Made by a program: the position numbers and the translations under genes. This document shows, one piece after another, positions 4,894-27,329 of a stretch of DNA of 64,000 nucleotides. Each line of letters starts with the position of its first letter. The first letter of the stretch is position 1. The stretch comes from Myxococcota bacterium (GTDB lineage Bacteria > Myxococcota > XYA12-FULL-58-9 > JALHOP01): assembly GCA_022842935.1 (NCBI GenBank), contig JALHOP010000007.1:203592-267591 (forward strand), read 5' to 3'. Below the pieces are notes generated by a model. That model saw nothing but the letters and a program-made list of their open reading frames with translations. It did no database searches and was not told where the DNA came from.

Positions 4894-5979
4894 ATGCGGC
4901 GTATCGGTTTGGTGCTGGCGTTTGCGGCGCTTGGTCTTGCGGCGTGTTTTGCGGACGAGGGTGACGCGTCGCTCACCCTCGAGCTCGGTGTCCTGCGTGA
5001 GCGTGCCGTCGCCGCCGGTCAGCGCGTCGACGAAGCGACGGTTGGAGTCACCTCCGACCGCCTGGCGGGCGAGGTCGTGCGGCCGGTCGACCTTGACGCG
5101 CTAAGCTTCGAGCTCGACGTCCCATCGGGTGTCCCGCTCCTCTTCGAGGCTCGTGCTTGCATCGCAGCCGGTGGGCGCTGCATCGCGAACTATTGGGGTG
5201 TCGCCCGCGCGACGCCGGCTCCGCGCAGCCGGGCCGAGGTCGTCATTCCCGCGTACGCGGCGGGCGAGCTCCTGGTCGACGTCAGGCGTCTCGACGGAGG
5301 GGCTGTAACTCCGGGCTTTCGTGTCGAGCTCGAGGCCGTGGCCCCGCGCGACGCACGCGTGGCGAAGTTTGCGACACGCCAAGGCGAGCAGCTCGTGGTA
5401 CCGGCCGGGCGCTATCGGGTCGTTACGAGCGCGCTTAGCGAGGGTGGACTGACGCTGGGTCTCGTCAGCGACCCGTTGCTGACCGTGGGGCAAGGCGCGA
5501 TCGTTAGCCAGACCCTGTTCTTCGGCGTGTGTACGGCTGGAATCGATGTGGACCTGGACGGGCTGGATTGCGCGACCGACTGCGATGAGTCGAGCCCTGC
5601 CTGCGGAAGCGATTGCGCGACCGACATCGACGCCGACGGCACACCCGACTGCCGTGATACCTGCATTGACACCGACCGTGATGGCTATGGTCACGGCGCT
5701 GCGGGTTGTCTAGGCCCAGATTGTGACGACACCACCGCATCGCGGGCGCCCGACCGACCCGAGCGTTGCAATGGCGCCGACGACGACTGCGACCCAGGGA
5801 CGAGCGACGCCGCGGCCTGTGTTTTCGAAGAGGGTGGGCCGGGCCCCGACGGCATCAACGACGATGATGGTGACCCAGGCACCGGCGACCCCGACGATGA
5901 CGGGCATGGAGCGGACGGACTCGACGGTGACTGCGACCCCGCCATGGGAGACGACATGTCGGTCTGTGGGGCGCCCTGA
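4894..5979 (+). CDS. MopE-like Asp/Cys-rich lipoprotein
   Basis: A 361-residue protein with a lipoprotein signal ending LGLAAC (Cys18), so it is an exported, lipid-anchored protein. Residues ~20-200 form a beta-rich domain of unknown family. From ~210 onward the chain turns acidic and Cys-rich with motifs such as CATDCDESSPACG, DTDRDGYG and RCNGADDDCDPG. These match the MopE-type putative metal-binding repeats of Myxococcota surface proteins, whose DxDxDG loops are expected to bind calcium. The Asp/Gly tail (DPDDDGHGADGLDGD) continues that character. The start is supported by a GGGGGAG stretch just upstream. Probably monocistronic; function unknown beyond likely metal-stabilised surface folding. 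Confidence 0.75.
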   Translation: MRRIGLVLAFAALGLAACFADEGDASLTLELGVLRERAVAAGQRVDEATVGVTSDRLAGEVVRPVDLDALSFELDVPSGVPLLFEARACIAAGGRCIANYWGVARATPAPRSRAEVVIPAYAAGELLVDVRRLDGGAVTPGFRVELEAVAPRDARVAKFATRQGEQLVVPAGRYRVVTSALSEGGLTLGLVSDPLLTVGQGAIVSQTLFFGVCTAGIDVDLDGLDCATDCDESSPACGSDCATDIDADGTPDCRDTCIDTDRDGYGHGAAGCLGPDCDDTTASRAPDRPERCNGADDDCDPGTSDAAACVFEEGGPGPDGINDDDGDPGTGDPDDDGHGADGLDGDCDPAMGDDMSVCGAP

Positions 5980-6043: not shown

Positions 6044-6403
6044 ATGCGATCCCTCTCCTCAGCTCTGCTCGTCGCGTTGCTCGCCCTGACTCACGTCGGC
6101 TCGGCGCTGCACTACGCCCTGGTCGAGCACGCAATCGCGGAGAACGGAGCTCTCGTCCACGTCGCCGAGGGCGTCGCCGAGGCGACCCCGAATAGCATCT
6201 CGGCCGACGCGGCGATCACGCGACTGCCGAGCACGAGCTGCGCGGTCTCGGCCTTGCAACGCCAGGCTTATCAAATGCCGGTGCCCGCTCAAGCGGTCAG
6301 CACCTTCGGTACCGCCGTCAGTCCCGTGCTGGTCTTCTGTCGCCGGGTCGCCGATAGCGGCGATACCTACCGGCTCGCACCAAAGATGGGTCCACCAGCC
6401 TAA
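6044..6403 (+). CDS. Small exported His-containing protein at the head of the TonB operon
   Basis: A 119-residue product with an N-terminal export signal (MRSLSSALLVALLALTHVG), followed by a His-containing segment, ALHYALVEHAIAENG then LVHVAEG. It lacks a lipobox. It ends 92 bases before the receptor gene and runs in the same direction, so it may share a transcript with the receptor, two lipoproteins and the ExbB/ExbD/TonB motor. Clustered His residues next to an uptake receptor suggest handling of a metal or metal complex in the periplasm, but no family is recognised and this is inference. The second uptake locus (23471-27329) has no obvious counterpart. Confidence 0.6.
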   Translation: MRSLSSALLVALLALTHVGSALHYALVEHAIAENGALVHVAEGVAEATPNSISADAAITRLPSTSCAVSALQRQAYQMPVPAQAVSTFGTAVSPVLVFCRRVADSGDTYRLAPKMGPPA

Positions 6404-6495: not shown

Positions 6496-9042
6496 TTGCA
6501 CACCCTTTCTTCGCTGCTGACCGCTATCGCGGCATCGACGACACTTACGTTCGTCGGGGGGGCGCTGTTTTGCGTCATGCCCGCAAGCGCCGCCGCCCAA
6601 GAAGCCTCGGCGGTCTCTCCGCCGGAGGTGCTTACGAACGTCGACGCTGTGTATCCGGCGGAGGCGCTCGAGAGCCGCCAGGAAGGGACCTCCGTGCTGC
6701 TCGTGACGGTCGACAGCGATGGCGCCGTGGTGGACGCGGAGGTCGCCGAGTCGGGAGGTGCGGCCTTCGACGGCGCCGCGATGGCGGCTATTCGGCAGTG
6801 GACCTTCAGGCCGGCCTTCCGCGATGGCGCACCCGTGCGGTCGCGCCTGCGCGTGCCGTTTCGCTTCGCGGCCCCCGACGCTCCGCCTGCGCCTGAAGTT
6901 TCGCCGCCGGTCGCAGAGGGAGTCGCGGGCGACGAGCAGTCAACCACGGCCCTGTCGGAGAAGCCCATCGACGTCACGGTTCACGGCGAGCGGCAGTTGC
7001 GAACCGAAGACCGGTCGGCGAGCGACTTCACCGTCGACCGGGCGGTCCTCGAAGCGGCTCCTCGGCAGGAGGGTGCGGAGACCTTGCGGACCGTGCCCGG
7101 GCTTTACATCGCGCGCGCCGAAGGCCTCGCGGTGGCGCACCGGTATTCCTTGCGCGGCTTCGACGCCGACCACGGCCAAGACATCGAATTCCGCGTTGGC
7201 GGCCTCCCCATCAACTTGCCGTCGCATATCCACGGCCAAGGTTACGCCGACCTCGGCTTCATGATCGCCGAGGCGACGAACGAGCTGCAGGCCTCCGAGG
7301 GCGTCTACGATCCGCGCCAAGGCGACTTCGCGGTCGCTGGTAGCATCGACGCTTCACTGGGTGTCGCGCGCCGCGGGATACAGCTCAAGTCGTCGTACGG
7401 TGCCTTCGACACCTCGCGCCAGCTCCTCCTCTGGGCTCCCGAGGGCGAACCAACGGGTACCTTCGGCGCGGTTCAGTACGTCCGTACGGGCGGCTTCGGC
7501 CAGAACCGAGCGGGTCAGGCGGCGAGCGCCATGGCGCAGTCCGTCTTCGGTAGCGGACCTTGGCGCTACCGCGCGCTGGGCATTCTCTACGGCGCGCGCG
7601 CAAACCTCGCGGGCGTCGTGCGCGCCGACGACGTCGCCGACGGACGCATCGGGTACTACGACGTCTATCCCTACGCTACCGCGCGAGGACAGAACGCGCT
7701 GTCAGCTCGATTCCTTGGCGGCCTCTTTGCGGAGTACCGCGGGGCCGCTGGTGACAATGGTGAGATTGGCGTCTGGGCTGGCCTCGACAACCTGCGCTTG
7801 CAGCAGAACTTCACAGGTTTCATTCAGCGCTCCCAAACCCTCGCAAATGTCGCGGGGCGCGGCGATCTGATCGAGCAACAGAACCGCACCTTGTCGTTGG
7901 GCCTCACTGCCCGCTATCGCACACGACCCTATCGTGCCTCGGCGTCAACTCACGGAACCCTCGAGCTCGGGCTCGCAGGACGTCTCGACACCATCGAGCA
8001 AGCTCAGAACCTGCTCGACGCTGGTGTGCGTGGTCAGACCTGGGATCGCAGGGTCGACGCGAACATCTTGGGCGCCGACGTTGGCTTCTGGAGCGACATC
8101 GACACGCGCCTTACGCGCCTCGTGCACCTGCGACTCGGTGTGCGCGGCGATGTGCTCTACTACGACGTCGACGACCGCTTGGGTAACTTCGCGCCGCTCA
8201 CACGTGCGCAGGACAACTACATCGTTGGCTATCGCCGTGGCGCGTATGGGCTCGCCGCGGGGCCGAGGACGAGTCTCGAGGTCAAGCCGCGCGAGTGGCT
8301 CGCACTACGAGCGGCCTACGGTGAAGGATATCGCTCGCCGCAGGCCCGCATCCTCGACGATGGCGAGTCAGCGCCGTTTTCGAAGGTTCGCTCGGCCGAC
8401 CTCGGAGCGCGCCTATCTTGGGACGACCGCTACCAGCTCACCTTTTCCGGCTACTTCACGCAGCTCTCCGATGACGTTGCCTTCGACGCCGAGGAGGGGC
8501 GCCTCGAGCGTATCGGAGCCACCCGCCGACTCGGTGGCGTTCTGCACGCGCAGGCGCGCCCGGTCGATTGGATCATCGGAGCGTTTTCGGTCACCTATGT
8601 GAACGCCGAACTGCTCGAGCCGCCGCCCGCCTCCGCTGAAGAGCCGCAACCGCCGTTCGAGCCCGGACAGCAGCTGCCGTTCGTGCCGCCAGTCGTCGCT
8701 CGGCTCGACCTAGGCGCGACTCCGACGATCGCTCGTGGCCTTGGCGCATACGATCTTCGTGGTCGCGCGGGAGTTGGCTTCTCGTACTTGTCGCCGCGGC
8801 CCCTTCCTTACGGAGTGTTTGCTCGCCACGTCGCGCTCCTCGACGCTTCGGCCGGTCTTGGCTGGGGGCCGTTCGATCTCACCATCGAGATCTACAATCT
8901 GCTCGATAGCCGCTACGCCGCGACCGAGCTCAACTTTCCCTCGAGCTGGGACCCCGAGTCGGCGCGGTCCCGCACACCCGCCCGCCACATCGCGGCAGGA
9001 GCGCCGCTATCGTGGCTTGCGACACTGGGGGTGACGCTGTGA
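6496..9042 (+). CDS. TonB-dependent outer-membrane receptor with an N-terminal TonB C-terminal domain
   Basis: An 848-residue protein. TTG 6496 is chosen because it gives a full signal peptide (LSSLLTAIAASTTLTF...ASAAAQ) behind a GGTGGA. Residues ~45-132 are a TonB C-terminal (energy-transducer) domain: VYPAEALESRQEGTSVLLVTV, then WTFRPA and VPFRF. It is followed by a TonB-box-like IDVTVHG near residue 158. Then come a plug domain (RTVPGLYIARAEG, SLRGFDADHGQDIEFRVGG, LPSHIHGQGYADLGF, YDPRQGDFAVAGS) and a 22-strand-type barrel ending with an aromatic-rich terminus. It should import a ligand across the outer membrane, powered by the ExbB/ExbD/TonB genes at 10903-12768. It is paralogous to 24112-26556. 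Ligand unknown; His residues in the plug loop suggest a metal or metallophore. Confidence 0.88.
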   Translation: MHTLSSLLTAIAASTTLTFVGGALFCVMPASAAAQEASAVSPPEVLTNVDAVYPAEALESRQEGTSVLLVTVDSDGAVVDAEVAESGGAAFDGAAMAAIRQWTFRPAFRDGAPVRSRLRVPFRFAAPDAPPAPEVSPPVAEGVAGDEQSTTALSEKPIDVTVHGERQLRTEDRSASDFTVDRAVLEAAPRQEGAETLRTVPGLYIARAEGLAVAHRYSLRGFDADHGQDIEFRVGGLPINLPSHIHGQGYADLGFMIAEATNELQASEGVYDPRQGDFAVAGSIDASLGVARRGIQLKSSYGAFDTSRQLLLWAPEGEPTGTFGAVQYVRTGGFGQNRAGQAASAMAQSVFGSGPWRYRALGILYGARANLAGVVRADDVADGRIGYYDVYPYATARGQNALSARFLGGLFAEYRGAAGDNGEIGVWAGLDNLRLQQNFTGFIQRSQTLANVAGRGDLIEQQNRTLSLGLTARYRTRPYRASASTHGTLELGLAGRLDTIEQAQNLLDAGVRGQTWDRRVDANILGADVGFWSDIDTRLTRLVHLRLGVRGDVLYYDVDDRLGNFAPLTRAQDNYIVGYRRGAYGLAAGPRTSLEVKPREWLALRAAYGEGYRSPQARILDDGESAPFSKVRSADLGARLSWDDRYQLTFSGYFTQLSDDVAFDAEEGRLERIGATRRLGGVLHAQARPVDWIIGAFSVTYVNAELLEPPPASAEEPQPPFEPGQQLPFVPPVVARLDLGATPTIARGLGAYDLRGRAGVGFSYLSPRPLPYGVFARHVALLDASAGLGWGPFDLTIEIYNLLDSRYAATELNFPSSWDPESARSRTPARHIAAGAPLSWLATLGVTL

Positions 9043-9803
9043 AGAGACTAAACTGCTGCTCGCTCGTCGTTGCCGTCGTCGCCGCCGCTTGTGTCGACAC
9101 AGGACAAGAGACCGTCACGATTCCGCTGCGCGTTTCGGGGACGCTCGTGAGCGACGCCGTGAGCACGACTGGTGGCTGGGCAGTGACGCTCGAGAGCGCA
9201 CAACTCGCTTTTGGTCCGCTCTATCTGTGCGCGGGTTACCAAGCCGGTAGTCTCTGCGATACGGCGCGGGCCGAGTGGACCGGAAGCGCGCTCGTCGATG
9301 TGTTGAACCCAGAGTCAGTCGACGTCGGCGTGCTCACCGGTGTCACGGGTGACGTCTACTCGTGGATGTACGACCTCGGCATCACCTCGTTGCTCACCCA
9401 GCAGCGTCCCCTGGTCCTCGACGCCGCCGAAGCGCTCGACGGCAACTCGGTGCGCCTCGAAGGCGTTGCCGTGAAGGCGCCGCACGCCATCAGCTTCGTG
9501 CTCGAGGTCGCGGTGCAACAAGAAGAAGAGACCGAGATCGGCGTCTCTGTTGTACGCAAAAGCGGAAGCGACGATTTCGAGTACGCCATCACCGGGGATG
9601 AGGCCGCCTTGACGGTCGGCTTCGACCCGCGTCTCTGGGTGCGCGACGTCGACTTCGACGCGCTTCTCGACGCCTCCTGCGCGCCCGACCCCGGCTGCCA
9701 GCTCGAGACGCGCTTCCCCAAGACTAGCCAGGGATATCGCGCGGTTCGCAGTGCGTTGGTCGCTGGTGCGCGGCCAACGTTCGTGTGGAGCACCAGCCCT
9801 TGA
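9039..9803 (+). CDS. Receptor-associated lipoprotein, family L1
   Basis: The GTG at 9039 overlaps the receptor stop (GTGA), indicating translational coupling. The 254-residue product starts MKRLNCCSLVVAVVAAACVD, a lipoprotein signal with lipidated Cys about residue 18. The mature part is beta-rich with GGWAVTLESAQLAFGPLYLC. The paralogue at 26553-27329 has the equivalent FAVELTSIRLEVGAIYLF at the same distance from its signal. Both lie directly after a TonB_C-fused receptor with a 4-base overlap, so the two proteins very likely work together at the outer membrane, perhaps as a ligand-binding surface or periplasmic partner. No named family was recognised. Confidence 0.7.
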   Translation: MKRLNCCSLVVAVVAAACVDTGQETVTIPLRVSGTLVSDAVSTTGGWAVTLESAQLAFGPLYLCAGYQAGSLCDTARAEWTGSALVDVLNPESVDVGVLTGVTGDVYSWMYDLGITSLLTQQRPLVLDAAEALDGNSVRLEGVAVKAPHAISFVLEVAVQQEEETEIGVSVVRKSGSDDFEYAITGDEAALTVGFDPRLWVRDVDFDALLDASCAPDPGCQLETRFPKTSQGYRAVRSALVAGARPTFVWSTSP

Positions 9804-9838
9804 AGGGCACTACTCAAACCATGATGGAGAGAAGGACC

Positions 9839-10828
9839 ATGATATTGAAGAACTTGGCGGGCGCGGCGGTCGTCGCCTTGACGGTAGGGCTCGTTGCCTG
9901 CGGCGACGACAACGCAAGTGGCACCGGGACCTTGTCAGTGATCCTCGAGTCCGAGGACTCGATTACCGACGGCGTCGAGCCGGGCGACGACGTCGAGAAC
10001 ATCGGCGACGGCTGGCAGGTCAGCTTCGATAAGTACATCGTCGCGATCGGTGAGATTGAGATCGAGCTGTCCACCGGAGACGACGTGCACGCCCACGCCG
10101 ACGAGGTGTTCGTCGTCGACCTCAAGACCGTCCCGTCGTCGGGTCTTCCGCTCTGGACTCTCAATGACCTGCGCGCTGGGCGCTGGGAGTTCAACTACGC
10201 GACGCCAGGCGCTGGTGATAGCGCCCCGACCCGACATAGCAGCGTAACGCAGGCCGACTTCGACGCACTGGTGAACGCCGACGGCACCTACCTCATCGCC
10301 GGAGAGCTCACGAAGACCGGTGGCGTGTCGTGCCCGCCGCCGTCCCTCGCTGTCCCTGGCGGGCGCACGCCGACTGGCGAAAACGACGCCGGCCACGCTT
10401 GCTACGCCAACGCGTCGGTAAGCTTCGAGCTGCTCGTCGCCGCCGAGACCTTTTTTGGCCCCTGCGAGCTCGACGGCGTGCCCGGGGTCAGCATCGTTGA
10501 TGACACCACGCAGACCGTCGCCGCGACCATCCACGGTGACCACCTGTTCTTCAATGGCTTTCCCGAAGGCGACGAAGGCGGCACGGTTCGCCTCGCGCAG
10601 TGGCTTGCCGACTGCGACCTGAACCTCGACGGCCAGGTGACACGGGCGGAGCTCACGGCCATCGCGCCAGCGGCGCTCGCCGAGATCGACGCGCGCTACC
10701 AACTCGGTGGCTCGCCCATCACGCCGCTCGACAACATGTGGGAGTACGTCGAGGCGCAGCTCAAAACCCAGGGTCACATGAACGGCGAGGGTGAGTGCCC
10801 GTTCGATGGCCAGGCACACGAGCATTGA
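9839..10828 (+). CDS. Receptor-operon lipoprotein, family L2 (HxxH, His-rich ends)
   Basis: ATG 9839 is chosen because it follows GGAGAGAAGGACC and gives a clean lipoprotein signal (MILKNLAGAAVVALTVGLVAC, Cys21); ATG 9821 is possible. The 329-residue product has GWQVSFDKYIVAIGEIEIE, a His cluster DDVHAHADE, the motif IHGDHLFF, an EF-hand-like DLNLDGQVTRAEL, and a C-terminal GQAHEH. The paralogue at 19691-20560 keeps GWSVQFDRYLVSV, AGRW, IHVEHMFY and the LNGGGLC end. The His clusters and HxxH motif suggest metal binding. It sits between the L1 lipoprotein and exbB in one direction, so it is part of the same uptake system. The general layout recalls copper-binding MbnP-type lipoproteins, but I cannot confirm that family. 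Confidence 0.72.
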   Translation: MILKNLAGAAVVALTVGLVACGDDNASGTGTLSVILESEDSITDGVEPGDDVENIGDGWQVSFDKYIVAIGEIEIELSTGDDVHAHADEVFVVDLKTVPSSGLPLWTLNDLRAGRWEFNYATPGAGDSAPTRHSSVTQADFDALVNADGTYLIAGELTKTGGVSCPPPSLAVPGGRTPTGENDAGHACYANASVSFELLVAAETFFGPCELDGVPGVSIVDDTTQTVAATIHGDHLFFNGFPEGDEGGTVRLAQWLADCDLNLDGQVTRAELTAIAPAALAEIDARYQLGGSPITPLDNMWEYVEAQLKTQGHMNGEGECPFDGQAHEH

Positions 10829-10902: not shown

Positions 10903-11571
10903 ATGAACGCCGTCGAGGCGGTCAAACATCTTCTCCTCGAATCTGGCGCGGCCTGGGTGCTGTATTTCCTCGGCATATTGTCCGTCGTCACCGTCGCCCT
11001 GGTGGTCGAGCGGGTCGTGTTCTACCGCGCCGTGAGCGCCGATCTGCGCTCACTCGTGGTCGAGGTCGACGGCCTGCTCGCCAAGGGTGACCGTTTGTCC
11101 GCGATGGCGGAGCTTGGGAAGTCGGACTCGGTAGCGGCGTCCATCGCGGTCGCGGGTATTCGCCTGTCAGACCGGGGTGTCGCCGCCGCCGAGCACGGCA
11201 TGCGCAGCGCAACGGCTCTGCAGCGCGCCCGGCTCGAGCGGTGGCTCGCGTATCTCGGTACTGTCGGAAACAACGCCCCGTTCGTTGGCCTCTTCGGGAC
11301 CGTCATTGGCGTCATCCACGCCTTCGAGGAGCTCGGCAGAAGCACAGGGCAACAGGCTGCCGCGAGCGCCTCCCAGGTGGCGTCGCAGGCGGTCATGGCT
11401 GCCGTCGCCGAGGCGTTGGTCGCCACTGCGGTAGGCATCCTCGTCGCGCTTCCGGCGGTTGCGTTCTACAACTATTTTCAGCGGCGTGTGACTGCGATCC
11501 TGGGCGAGTCGGAGGCGCTCTCGAGTCTCGTGCTCGCGTACATCGGTGACGGCGAGCAAAAGGGGGCCTGA
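10903..11571 (+). CDS. exbB: ExbB/TolQ-family proton-channel subunit
   Basis: A 222-residue inner-membrane protein. It has three membrane segments: residues ~18-40 (YFLGILSVVTVALVVERVVF), ~120-145 and ~165-190. The GNNAPFVGLFGTVIGVIHAF block is the classic MotA/TolQ/ExbB signature, and the VAEALVATAVGILVALPAV helix is the conserved channel helix. With ExbD and TonB encoded immediately downstream it forms the proton-driven motor that energises TonB-dependent receptors. It lies 74 bases after the L2 lipoprotein; exbD starts 5 bases after its stop. Only one motor is seen for the two receptors in the window, so it may serve both. Confidence 0.93.
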   Translation: MNAVEAVKHLLLESGAAWVLYFLGILSVVTVALVVERVVFYRAVSADLRSLVVEVDGLLAKGDRLSAMAELGKSDSVAASIAVAGIRLSDRGVAAAEHGMRSATALQRARLERWLAYLGTVGNNAPFVGLFGTVIGVIHAFEELGRSTGQQAAASASQVASQAVMAAVAEALVATAVGILVALPAVAFYNYFQRRVTAILGESEALSSLVLAYIGDGEQKGA

Positions 11572-11575
11572 CGCG

Positions 11576-11992
11576 ATGGCCGGCTCCCAAGAACGCGACA
11601 CCGGCATCATCAGCGGCATCAATGTCACGCCGCTCGTCGACATCACGCTCGTGCTCCTGGTCATCTTCATCGTCACCGCGAAGATCATCGTGACACCTGC
11701 GGTACATCTCGACCTGCCGGCCGCCAAGAGCACCGAAGAGCACGAGGTCGTGCTTTCGGTCATCGTGCCCAAAGACGGACCGACACTCATGAACGGCGTC
11801 ACCGTCCCCAATGACGAAGCGCTACTCACCCAAGCGCGAGCCGTGCACGATGCTGACCCATCCGCGCGAGCGGTCATCAGCGCCGATGGTGACGTGCCGC
11901 ACCGTACGATGCTGCATGTGCTCGATTTGCTCAAGCAGTCAGGCTTCTCGGCAATCGCGTTTGCGGCGCGGCCGCTCGAGACCGCGCCGTGA
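11576..11992 (+). CDS. exbD: ExbD/TolR-family motor subunit
   Basis: A 138-residue protein from ATG 11576, five bases after the exbB stop. NVTPLVDITLVLLVIFIVT is the single membrane helix with the conserved protonatable Asp (about residue 17). The rest is a periplasmic domain with the usual ExbD/TolR pattern (VVLSVIVPKDG, RAVISADGDVPHRTMLHVLD). It pairs with ExbB to couple proton flow to TonB. The gene ends in a GTGA overlap with the tonB start, so exbB, exbD and tonB are tightly coupled. Confidence 0.93.
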   Translation: MAGSQERDTGIISGINVTPLVDITLVLLVIFIVTAKIIVTPAVHLDLPAAKSTEEHEVVLSVIVPKDGPTLMNGVTVPNDEALLTQARAVHDADPSARAVISADGDVPHRTMLHVLDLLKQSGFSAIAFAARPLETAP

Positions 11993-12768
11993 ACAGGAGC
12001 ATCGCCGAGGTCATCTACGAAGGCACTCCACCCGCACCGCAGCAGCGCTGGCTGTTAGGAGTCCTGTTCGCCCTCGTGGTCCATGTCGGCATTCTCATTG
12101 CCGCACTCGAGAGCGAGCCGACCCTCGAGTTCTGGGCAAGCGATCTGGCGACACGCATCCATCACGAGCTATCCCGGCTCCACGAAGCCCCTCTCGAGCC
12201 GGACCTGCCCCCACCACCCCAGGCTCCGCCACCGCCTCCCGCGCCGGCGAAGGTGCTGCCTCCGACCGCCAAAGCGGACGCTCCCGCCGCACCAGTGAAC
12301 GCGACTCCCGCCGCAGCACCGGCTCAGGCCGCCGATGTCGTTGCTGCAAGCGATGTTGCCGAAGACTTCACAGGTACGACGATCGTGACCGGCAAGGCTT
12401 CTGTCTACGCCGGCGGCGTCACAACGAGCTCCGGAACCACGTCCACCGCCGTACCACCAGGAACACCTGTCGCCCAGGACGCTCGCTCGTACGCCAAAGC
12501 GATCGAGCCTACCAATGCGGATTGGGCCTGCCCCTGGCCCAAAGAGGCCGAGCGCGCCGACGTCAATGAAGAGTCTGCCACTGTGCGCGTCACGGTGGGC
12601 GTCGACGGTACCCCCCTTTCGGTTCGAATCGTCCGCGACCCTGGCTTTGGCTTCGGAGCAGCCGCAGCTGCGTGCGCCATGCGTGAGCGCTACGCCGCGG
12701 CGCGTGACGCCGCAGGCACACCTATACGCACCGAGTCGGCCCCAATCCGGGTGACGTTCAGCAGATGA
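11989..12768 (+). CDS. tonB: TonB-family energy transducer
   Basis: A 259-residue protein starting at GTG 11989 (GTGA overlap with exbD). One N-terminal membrane segment (residues ~20-40, GVLFALVVHVGILIAAL) includes the His of the TonB SxxxH-type signal anchor. A Pro-rich periplasmic linker follows (PDLPPPPQAPPPPPAPAK), then a C-terminal TonB domain from ~165 (ATVRVTVGVDGTPLSVRIV, VTFSR). It would carry energy from ExbB/ExbD to receptors such as 6496-9042. The linker is short (~60 residues of Pro/Ala). The C-terminal domain carries Cys residues (NADWACPWP and AAAACAM) that could form a disulfide. Confidence 0.88.
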   Translation: MNRSIAEVIYEGTPPAPQQRWLLGVLFALVVHVGILIAALESEPTLEFWASDLATRIHHELSRLHEAPLEPDLPPPPQAPPPPPAPAKVLPPTAKADAPAAPVNATPAAAPAQAADVVAASDVAEDFTGTTIVTGKASVYAGGVTTSSGTTSTAVPPGTPVAQDARSYAKAIEPTNADWACPWPKEAERADVNEESATVRVTVGVDGTPLSVRIVRDPGFGFGAAAAACAMRERYAAARDAAGTPIRTESAPIRVTFSR

Positions 12769-24111: not shown

Positions 24112-26556
24112 GTGCTGGCCGTCATGCTGGTCGCGGTGTACGCCGCGGCGGACTTAGATCCAGCGTCGCAAGACGACGACCTTGTCCCCCCCGAGGTTGT
24201 GGAGGCGCAACCGCCGGTGCTCGCGGAGGAGGTCCTGCCATCGGCTGTGACCTACGTCGTGGCGATCGCATCGGTCGATGCGGACGGCGCGGTCACCGCG
24301 ACGCAGATCGAGACGTCTGGTGGCGAAGCCCTCGACGCAGCGGTCATGCGGGCCCTCGCCACGTGGCGCTTCACTCCGGCGAGGCGCAACGGCCTGCCAA
24401 TCCCGTCAACCGTGCGTGTACCCTTCACATTCGCTCCGAACGACGCGGCAGCCGAAACACCCACGCCTCCACCACCCCCCGTCGCTCCAGAACCCGAGGC
24501 TCCCGCGTCGCCGACCTACGAAACCGTGGTGTCGACGCGTGGGCATCGCGCCATGGTCTCGGTCTCCGATTTCGGCGTCGAGCTCGGCGAACTGAAGCGC
24601 ATTCCGCGGCGGTCGGCGACTTCGTACCTGACGCTGGTTCCGAGCGTCATGCTCACGAACCATGGCGGCGAGGGCCACGCCGATTCCGTCTTCCTGCGCG
24701 GCATCGCTGCCGGCGAAGGCAAGGACATCGCCATGTCGGTCCAGGGGGTACCCCTGAACGAGGTCGCGAACGCGCATGGCCACGGCTACGCCGATACGTA
24801 TTTCATCATCCCCGAGCTCGTAAGCCGACTCCGAGTGGTCGAAGGCCCTTTCGATCCTGCGCAGGGTGACTTCGCGGTAGCTGGCTCGGCAAGCTTCGAG
24901 CTCGGTGTCGAGCGTCGGGGCGTGTCGGTAAGCGGGTCGGTCGGCAACTTCGGCAGCAAGCGCTTGAGTGGCGTGTGGGGTCCAGGTGCGAGCTCGGACA
25001 CGTTCGTGGGCATGCTCGTGCGCCGTGGCGATGGCTTCGGCCCCAATCGCGCGTACAGCAACGTCTCTGCGATGGCGCAACACAAACTGGTGCTCGACCA
25101 GGCGACCACATTGACGCTCTTCGCGGCGAGCTACGCCGGACGCTTCTCCTCGGCGGGCGTCTTGCGGGACCCCGATCTCCGCCGCGGCGACATTGACTGT
25201 GGCAACAGCGAGCCGTTCTTTTGCAGCTACGACCGCAATCAGGGCGGTGCCATTCAGCGACACATCGGCTCCGTGTCCTTAGCCTGGCGCGGCGAGGATG
25301 GCAGCAGCGCCGAACAAAACGTCTATGCCCACCTGCGTACGCAGCGCATGCGCGAGAATTTCACGGGCTTCCTCAACGACGTGCCGCCGCTAGGCGAAAC
25401 GCAGCGGGGCGATCTCAACGAGCAGTCGTACGGGGGCATCACCATCGGCGCCGCCGGTCACTACCGCGCGCGCGCGCGCATGGTGGACATCGAGCTGGGC
25501 TACTTCACGCGCTACGACGATGTGAACACACGCTCACGCCGTCTGCGGGCGAGCAATGGCGCGCCCTATGCGCAGCTCTTCGACAACGACGTGCGGTCGA
25601 CCAATGTAGCCGGCTATGTCACCGCGCGCGGCCGCTGGGCGTGGCTGACTGCACGCGTTGGCTTGCGGCTCGAGAGCTTCTTCTTCACGGTTCGCGATCG
25701 CAATCGATCCACTGTCGACCGCGAGGGCACGCGCTTGAGCGACGACAGCATCGACGCGTACGGCCAGACGGTGAACCCGCGGGCATCGCTCGAAGCCAAG
25801 CTCAACTCGACGAGCTCACTGTTCGCGAGCTTCGGTATGGGAGCCCGCTCGAGTGACGCCGCCGCGCTCTCGAATGGCGAGCTTGCGCCCTTCGCGCGTA
25901 TCGTCGCCGCGGACTTCGGAGCCCGGGATGTGCGTGCCATAGCGGATACGCAAATCGACTCGCGAGCTGGCGTCTTCGCGACCCGCGTGAGCCGCGACCT
26001 CGTGTTCGACGAGGTTGCCGGACGCAATCAGCCCATCGGGGCGAGCAACCGCTCGGGCGCATTCACGAGCGTGCGTGTCACCCATGGCTCGCACCTCGAT
26101 CTGCTAGCGAGTGCATCATACACCCGCGCCTATCAGCCCGCGCCAGGCACGAGCGTCTGGCGGATCTTCGACGGGCCAGAGCTCCCGTACGCTCCACGCG
26201 GTCTCGTCCGCTTCGACGGATGGGTCGGAGACGAGGGCACGCTGTTCGGCCACGCCTCGACCTACGGATTCGCGCTCGGGGTCGGCGTCATAGGCCCCCG
26301 CCCCCTGCCGCTCGGCACCTCGAGCCAGGCGATCGTGCTGGTCGACACCTCACTCAACTTCGGCGTTGGTCCACTCGAGATCACGGCCTCGGTGACGAAC
26401 CTCTTCGATCGGCGCTGGCGCGAGAGTGAGTTCAACTATGCGTCGAACTTCCGCGAGGCCGGTGCCGAGCCGTCGCTGGTGGCGGTACGTCACTTCTCGG
26501 CGGGGGCACCGCGCATGGTCTTGTTCACCACGGCTCTTCATTGGGACGCACCATGA
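24112..26556 (+). CDS. TonB-dependent receptor with N-terminal TonB C-terminal domain (second copy)
   Basis: GTG 24112 gives 814 residues; ATG 24124 is an alternative. A short signal (MLAVMLVAVYAAA) precedes a TonB C-terminal domain at ~35-108 (VVAIASVDADGAVTATQIE, TWRFTPARRNG, VPFTF). It is followed by a Pro-rich linker and a TonB-box-like ETVVST at residue 137. The plug has VPSVMLTNHGGEGHADSVF, NAHGHGYADTYF and FDPAQGDFAVAGS, which align motif by motif with the receptor at 6496. The barrel ends near residue 814. The HGHGYAD loop parallels HIHGQGYAD in the first receptor, so ligand chemistry is probably shared. No motor genes follow; it likely uses exbB-exbD-tonB at 10903-12768. The downstream lipoprotein overlaps by 4 bases (ATGA). 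Confidence 0.86.
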   Translation: MLAVMLVAVYAAADLDPASQDDDLVPPEVVEAQPPVLAEEVLPSAVTYVVAIASVDADGAVTATQIETSGGEALDAAVMRALATWRFTPARRNGLPIPSTVRVPFTFAPNDAAAETPTPPPPPVAPEPEAPASPTYETVVSTRGHRAMVSVSDFGVELGELKRIPRRSATSYLTLVPSVMLTNHGGEGHADSVFLRGIAAGEGKDIAMSVQGVPLNEVANAHGHGYADTYFIIPELVSRLRVVEGPFDPAQGDFAVAGSASFELGVERRGVSVSGSVGNFGSKRLSGVWGPGASSDTFVGMLVRRGDGFGPNRAYSNVSAMAQHKLVLDQATTLTLFAASYAGRFSSAGVLRDPDLRRGDIDCGNSEPFFCSYDRNQGGAIQRHIGSVSLAWRGEDGSSAEQNVYAHLRTQRMRENFTGFLNDVPPLGETQRGDLNEQSYGGITIGAAGHYRARARMVDIELGYFTRYDDVNTRSRRLRASNGAPYAQLFDNDVRSTNVAGYVTARGRWAWLTARVGLRLESFFFTVRDRNRSTVDREGTRLSDDSIDAYGQTVNPRASLEAKLNSTSSLFASFGMGARSSDAAALSNGELAPFARIVAADFGARDVRAIADTQIDSRAGVFATRVSRDLVFDEVAGRNQPIGASNRSGAFTSVRVTHGSHLDLLASASYTRAYQPAPGTSVWRIFDGPELPYAPRGLVRFDGWVGDEGTLFGHASTYGFALGVGVIGPRPLPLGTSSQAIVLVDTSLNFGVGPLEITASVTNLFDRRWRESEFNYASNFREAGAEPSLVAVRHFSAGAPRMVLFTTALHWDAP

Positions 26557-27329
26557 TCCGAACCACCTGTGTCTTTTGCCTGCTGGTGTTGTCATCGTGC
26601 GGTAGCGCCACCGGCGGCCGTCCTGTCGACTTCACGATGCAGATGGAGCTGGTCACCGCGCCGGGAGACGCCGATGGTGACCCACGCACGTTCACGGTGA
26701 ACGACTTCGCCGTCGAGTTGACTTCGATTCGCCTCGAGGTGGGCGCGATCTACTTGTTCGAGAAGCAGCCACTCGTGGACGCGCGCCGATGGCTCGACAC
26801 GCTGGGTAACGCGCTCCTCCCCGCGGCGCACGCCCACCCGGGCGACAGCTTCTTTGCCGGCGGCCGAGCGCTGGGAGAGTGGGTGTCTGCTTTCACGTAC
26901 GAGCTTGACCGCGATGACGACACCCTCATGCAACTCGGAGACGTCGAGGGCATCGCGGGCTGGGTGCGTTCGTTTTCGATCGTGTTCGCTGCGCGCGGAA
27001 CGCAAGTTGGACACGTTGCCATCGCCGGAACCGCGACGCGCGCCGAAACGACGATCCCGTTTCGCATGACGGTGACGTTTCCGGCCGACATCGAGTCACG
27101 GCGTCTCGACTTCGCGAGCGCAACGGTGGAGCTCTCGGAAAGCGGAGCGCTCCTTGTCCGGGCGAACCCCGCGGCATGGTTCGAGGGAGCGATGTTCGAG
27201 AGGCTGAGCCCGCCCGTCGCGACTAGCACGGTCGAGCTTGACCCCGACGACCAGGTTCACCGCGCGGTCACCACGAACTTGCGCCGCGGACGTCCCTACA
27301 GCCTCGAGTGGCAGCAGGCGCTACCGTGA
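26553..27329 (+). CDS. Receptor-associated lipoprotein, family L1 (second copy)
   Basis: ATG 26553 overlaps the receptor stop. The 258-residue product has the lipoprotein signal MIRTTCVFCLLVLSSC (Cys16). The mature N-terminal part has FAVELTSIRLEVGAIYLF, equivalent to WAVTLESAQLAFGPLYLC in 9039-9803. A His pair AAHAHPGD and later beta strands (TTIPFRMTVTF) follow. Same gene order and same 4-base coupling to the receptor as the first locus show a conserved pair. It is the last gene of the 23471-27329 operon; a 19-bp palindrome lies 25 bases further on. Function unknown. Confidence 0.7.
   Translation: MIRTTCVFCLLVLSSCGSATGGRPVDFTMQMELVTAPGDADGDPRTFTVNDFAVELTSIRLEVGAIYLFEKQPLVDARRWLDTLGNALLPAAHAHPGDSFFAGGRALGEWVSAFTYELDRDDDTLMQLGDVEGIAGWVRSFSIVFAARGTQVGHVAIAGTATRAETTIPFRMTVTFPADIESRRLDFASATVELSESGALLVRANPAAWFEGAMFERLSPPVATSTVELDPDDQVHRAVTTNLRRGRPYSLEWQQALP

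Follow-up and report, generated by a model that had tools for sequence, protein, structure and literature searches.

The window (the whole stretch of DNA that was analysed, 64,000 nucleotides) contains two genes for TonB-dependent receptors with an N-terminal TonB C-terminal domain (CTD), and both receptor genes, with the genes that follow them, lie on its forward strand. Receptor 1 (P0001; 6496-9042, 848 aa) comprises a probable signal peptide recognised by eye from the sequence (residues 1-36; 6496-6603), the fused CTD (residues 43-124; 6622-6867; PF03544 and a structural model), a Pro/Ala-rich linker predicted to be disordered from pLDDT and the family alignment (residues 125-156; 6868-6963), a TonB-box-like segment, PIDVTVHG (residues 157-164; 6964-6987), a plug domain (7018-7341; PF07715) and a beta-barrel whose Pfam-matched portion lies at 7741-8901 (PF00593, AlphaFold2). 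Pfam places PF03544 at residues 52-124 (E 4.8e-18; 65.8 bits against a curated cut-off of 24.6), PF07715 at 175-282 and PF00593 at 416-802, and the plug and 22-strand-type barrel (PF07715, PF00593) are those of a TonB-dependent transporter. The putative box, read from the sequence and the family alignment, continues as PIDVTVHGE over residues 157-165, and its position before the plug is conserved in 105 relatives.

Receptor 2 (P0002; 24112-26556, 814 aa) has its CTD at residues 49-108 (24256-24435; PF03544, E 2.5e-9; 37.9 bits, cut-off 24.6), a box-like segment, YETVVSTR (24517-24540), that reads YETVVSTRG from residue 136, and a plug at residues 160-258 (24589-24885; PF07715). Its signal peptide is short and ill-defined, and the start codons (TTG, GTG) of the two receptors are putative. 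Both CTDs score above the curated PF03544 cut-off, and both proteins run from a signal-peptide-like segment through the CTD, a linker rich in Pro and Ala and the box-like segment to plug and barrel. An earlier sequence-only reading of the two genes had proposed the order CTD, box and plug, and the anatomy bears it out. That reading put the box about 25 residues from the domain; the box is indeed close by, but slightly farther away, at 32 residues from the end of the CTD in receptor 1 and about 27 in receptor 2.

Receptor 1 is followed by two genes for lipoprotein-like proteins of no known family (9012-9803, 263 aa, conserved beside the fused receptor; 9785-10828, 347 aa, conserved in the operon; both from family searches and comparison of loci), an ExbB/TolQ-type proton channel (10903-11571; PF01618, E 2.4e-27), ExbD/TolR (11546-11992; PF02472, E 3.9e-23) and a free operon TonB with a divergent two-cysteine, or CPWP, CTD (11989-12768; PF03544, E 7.1e-5; 130 bits with a CPWP profile). 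This order, from receptor through the two lipoprotein-like genes to ExbB, ExbD and TonB, is found in many of 80 loci. Comparison of loci also places a lipoprotein-like protein of 262 aa (26541-27329) after receptor 2 in the position equivalent to 9012-9803; no TonB gene was found near receptor 2. Searches of Pfam and NCBIfam gave no match for these lipoprotein-like families (9012-9803, 9785-10828, 26541-27329), both of which lie directly 3' of fused receptors across Myxococcota and possibly bind metal, as some His pairs suggest. Upstream of receptor 1 lies a gene for a secreted protein of 119 aa and no known family (6044-6403), relatives of which precede fused receptors in loci L068, L104 and L109, and a little upstream of the operon a lipoprotein-like protein is encoded that carries a metal-binding motif of the MopE type (4894-5979; PF11617).

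Fold and distribution of the fused domain

AlphaFold2 modelled the mature receptor 1 with 77 relatives at a mean pLDDT of 91 and a pTM of 0.83; the CTD is confident in this whole-receptor model, whose PDB matches include PqqU, FecA and FhuA, and mature residues 97-130 (the box and the greater part of the linker) have pLDDT below 50 and no strand. Modelling of residues 39-177 alone, with 72 relatives, put the CTD at pLDDT 94-98, and the box, with a pLDDT below 60 in both predictions, once more formed no strand. The best PDB matches of this shorter model are TonB CTDs (9ddz, Z 12.9; 6i97_D, Z 12.6; 9dc4_T, 12.5; 2gsk_B, Z 11.2), and thus the N-terminal domain is, as modelled for receptor 1 as a single chain, a genuine TonB CTD fold. 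The sequence-only reading had assigned a TonB fold, with a signalling (STN) domain as the result that would overturn it, and the assignment holds: neither receptor has a Pfam match to STN at E<=1, and the only STN match of the genome lies elsewhere. The fold searches with the CTD model likewise returned no STN structure, which proves nothing alone, and a search of PHROGs gave only a marginal match.

The genome has 14 PF03544 matches and 14 plug matches, with five proteins carrying both, and since the order recurs in five of the 14 plug proteins and in over 100 relatives the fusion is not a chance event. A combined CTD and plug profile matched 121 of 195 Myxococcota genomes at E<=1e-25, mostly over the full length, and almost all of the 80 public loci of the receptor 1 family, which are nearly all myxobacterial to judge by their titles, are fused. 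Distribution was examined in Myxococcota genomes and in plasmid records. On plasmids of Alphaproteobacteria, Cupriavidus and Bacteroidota, the related plugs start, in all matches listed, with the box or close to it; none of these plasmid-borne plugs has a CTD, and no match listed covers 80% of the query. The receptors of L113 and L119 and one receptor in L068 also have no CTD and retain the box. Taken as a whole, this distribution makes the CTD look like an old, optional addition in Myxococcota. Where the CTD would be, the receptor of L113 (7686-10073) has three acidic box-like repeats before its box (EIVDVETGDG, TIIDVEASDG and TIIDVEAGED). In C20, one of the five fused receptors of the genome, CarboxypepD-like sequence separates the CTD from the box; the order TonB CTD, CarboxypepD_reg-type domain, box and plug, with two kinds of N-terminal extension on one chain, is seen in L005 (genome C20:78218-78445) and in L161 (8109-10988).

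Alignment of 105 fused N-termini shows that the TonB core of the CTD is kept and that the linker, 25% of which is Pro, ranges in length between 19 and 113 residues, with a median of 45. In a tree of 216 CTDs, based on 83 columns and with many forks poorly resolved, the 123 fused CTDs form two old clades that are separate from the free TonB CTDs, and a fused CTD is not grouped with the TonB from the same operon. Origin of the fused CTD by local duplication of the operon TonB finds no support in this tree, with its poorly resolved forks. Two sequence features were considered as marks of altered function and rejected. The glycine of the GIEG motif, near-invariant in canonical TonBs, is present in 98% of free and 12-19% of fused CTDs, and the two-cysteine TonBs have lost the motif too, so its loss is no sign of lost TonB function. 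A proline in the edge strand occurs in 75% of one fused clade and also in 26% of free TonBs; it therefore does not discriminate, and was set aside as a bar to box pairing.

The two-cysteine TonB and its operons

A W.CPWP motif and a second cysteine in the later helix region mark the CTD of the operon TonBs, and the two cysteines probably form a disulfide. In this subclade (11989-12768 and L142-L156) the pattern is W.CPWP followed by CA, and the C-terminus stops right after the last strand. The two-cysteine TonBs form a single clade in the CTD tree (SH-aLRT 94), and the CPWP profile separates them sharply, at about 98-138 bits against at most 55 for other TonBs. All 18 two-cysteine TonBs with readable surroundings adjoin a fused receptor, in several gene orders; a nineteenth, cut by a contig end, is outside this count, and because the fifteen profile rows derive from loci that had been selected for having a fused receptor, the independent part of the 18 is mainly the Myxococcaceae-type set.

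Among loci chosen for other TonBs, all seven that combine ExbB and ExbD with a receptor have a fused one, and the receptors next to TonBs that have no ExbB or ExbD (eight or nine TonB genes) are unfused. Counted over all sampled loci, ExbB and ExbD lie within 8 kb of 38 receptors, 37 of them fused, as compared with 31 of 119 plug proteins (roughly 26%) in nine genomes, where frames of at least 780 aa with a clear PF03544 match were counted as receptors; no p-value is given for this comparison because the loci are kin to one another. Most fused receptors of the sample (91, including receptor 2) have no TonB gene nearby, in a sample that was partly selected for having a fused receptor and in which some stretches are too short to show neighbours. 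The idea of a fused receptor in every full Ton operon is weakened: L119 retains ExbB-ExbD beside a receptor that lost its CTD, M. xanthus Oar belongs to a complete Ton cluster and has a CarboxypepD domain and no CTD (PMC6434023), and there are the eight or nine TonB genes near unfused receptors.

A possible docking role and its alternatives

The reading tentatively favoured here, at something short of an even chance, is that the fused CTD serves on the receptor as a docking domain and captures TonB close to the box. Tethered by the flexible Pro/Ala-rich linker, the CTD would sit in the periplasm ahead of an ordinary TonB box and would work alongside TonB, not instead of it, recruiting or selecting a TonB perhaps through CTD-CTD contact or contact with ExbD. 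Such docking would raise the local concentration of TonB; ligand binding would then free the box, TonB would grip it, and the plug would be pulled. For many fused receptors the dedicated partner would be the divergent two-cysteine TonB encoded beside them. Docking is favoured over the other readings because fused receptors are linked to TonB-ExbB-ExbD operons; the box is also kept together with the CTD, the two-cysteine TonBs, a clade of their own, adjoin fused receptors, the fused CTDs group apart from the TonB of the operon, and FoxA provides a precedent in its two-step capture of TonB through residues upstream of the box (PMC6699858). Against docking stand the many fused receptors with no nearby TonB gene, the unfused Oar, the loss of the CTD in L119, the fact that a shared operon does not show contact, and the suggestion that CTD dimers in crystals may be artefacts (PMC13253070). 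The more specific proposal that the two CTDs, of TonB and of the receptor, bind each other or pass the box, with the divergent two-cysteine clade as the dedicated partner of fused receptors, is doubtful. Of the four options named in the sequence-only reading (blocking the box, pre-engaging it, handing over to TonB, or replacing the TonB tip), handing over is the candidate that fits best.

Blocking and pre-engagement correspond to a latch in cis: the CTD would take up the box of its own receptor by strand addition, keep it covered while no ligand is bound and cede it to TonB once ligand has bound. In favour of this, the fold is the one that binds TonB boxes, TonBs in complex with a receptor (6i97_D, 2gsk_B) are among the best structural matches, and a linker never shorter than 19 residues would allow the chain to fold back; the arrangement resembles the strand exchange described for the FpvA signalling domain, and the box of apo-FpvA is a strand paired with the N-terminal domain of the same protein (PMC2729926). 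Yet neither AlphaFold2 model (whole receptor or isolated N-terminus) shows pairing of the box with the CTD or lends support to blocking or pre-engagement, although single-chain models may miss a weak strand contact; the length of the linker is unconstrained, and a CarboxypepD-like domain intervenes in the C20 type and, by Pfam, in the same order in L161. Such a latch lies on the unlikely side. A role as an envelope anchor or spacer, with the CTD binding peptidoglycan or, for example, the two operon lipoproteins and taking no direct part in energy transfer, is unlikely. Binding of peptidoglycan has been reported for TonB CTDs, the fused CTD is accompanied by two conserved genes for lipoprotein-like proteins that belong to no known family, and the domain was dispensable in evolution, with close relatives in L113 and L119 having lost it and kept the box, but this role leaves the link to TonB-ExbB-ExbD operons unexplained.

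Two further explanations have very little in their favour. In one, the fused CTD, being the receptor-binding end of TonB, replaces the periplasmic TonB tip, so that the receptor is energised with no separate TonB CTD; this fourth option of the sequence-only reading is very unlikely, given that no transmembrane anchor precedes the CTD, that a TonB with its own CTD is encoded with ExbB and ExbD in the same conserved operon, and that the box is kept. With TonB present and the box kept, the CTD cannot simply substitute for TonB. In the other, the domain signals as STN does, by contact with an anti-sigma factor, and it does occupy the position on the chain that STN has in TonB-dependent transducers; VreA, moreover, combines STN with a TolA/TonB-like domain (PMC2729926). 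Signalling of this kind is hardly to be expected here, as there is no STN match, the 17 FecR matches of the genome are all distant from the five fused receptors (about 49 kb for the nearest), and the most frequent matches in 148 neighbouring frames include neither sigma nor FecR families.

Relation to known systems

A survey of 34,893 receptors named five N-terminal architectures, with TonB_C absent (PMC6434023), and the fused receptors would add a class to it. No description or test of a CTD-fused receptor was found in the open-access literature that was searched. These receptors bear on the way in which TonB locates and selects one receptor among many, and on whether contacts between CTDs have a role in vivo. 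They provide a natural, conserved set in which a CTD is tethered beside the box, with relatives that lost the CTD and a matching TonB subclade, and the question is therefore testable by deletion and binding experiments.

The domain order itself is already known to annotators through MxcH, the myxochelin receptor (NCBIfam NF038079), which also has an N-terminal TonB CTD followed by plug and barrel; the remark in the sequence-only reading that such fusions were known from sequence is borne out by this profile, which begins with the same domain. NF038079 is the nearest NCBIfam family over the N-terminal 280 residues of receptor 1, of which residues 42-325 align to profile positions 1-277 (E 2.8e-31). 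Receptors 1 and 2 score 108.4 and 60.3 bits, respectively, against an equivalog cut-off of 925; at 108 bits receptor 1 is not MxcH, and its barrel differs, as probably does its substrate. The STN transducers FpvA, FecA and FoxA likewise carry an extra periplasmic domain before the TonB box, whereas here a TonB CTD takes the place of STN and no FecR-type partner lies near the fused receptors of this genome. Oar/SusC-type receptors (CarboxypepD_reg) also have an N-terminal extension before the box, and the C20 type and L161 have both domains; receptors 1 and 2 have no Pfam match to CarboxypepD and are not of the Oar type. With the TonB energy transducer, receptors 1 and 2 have the CTD fold in common, but they have no inner-membrane anchor, and their CTD is N-terminal on an outer-membrane protein, before the plug and barrel.
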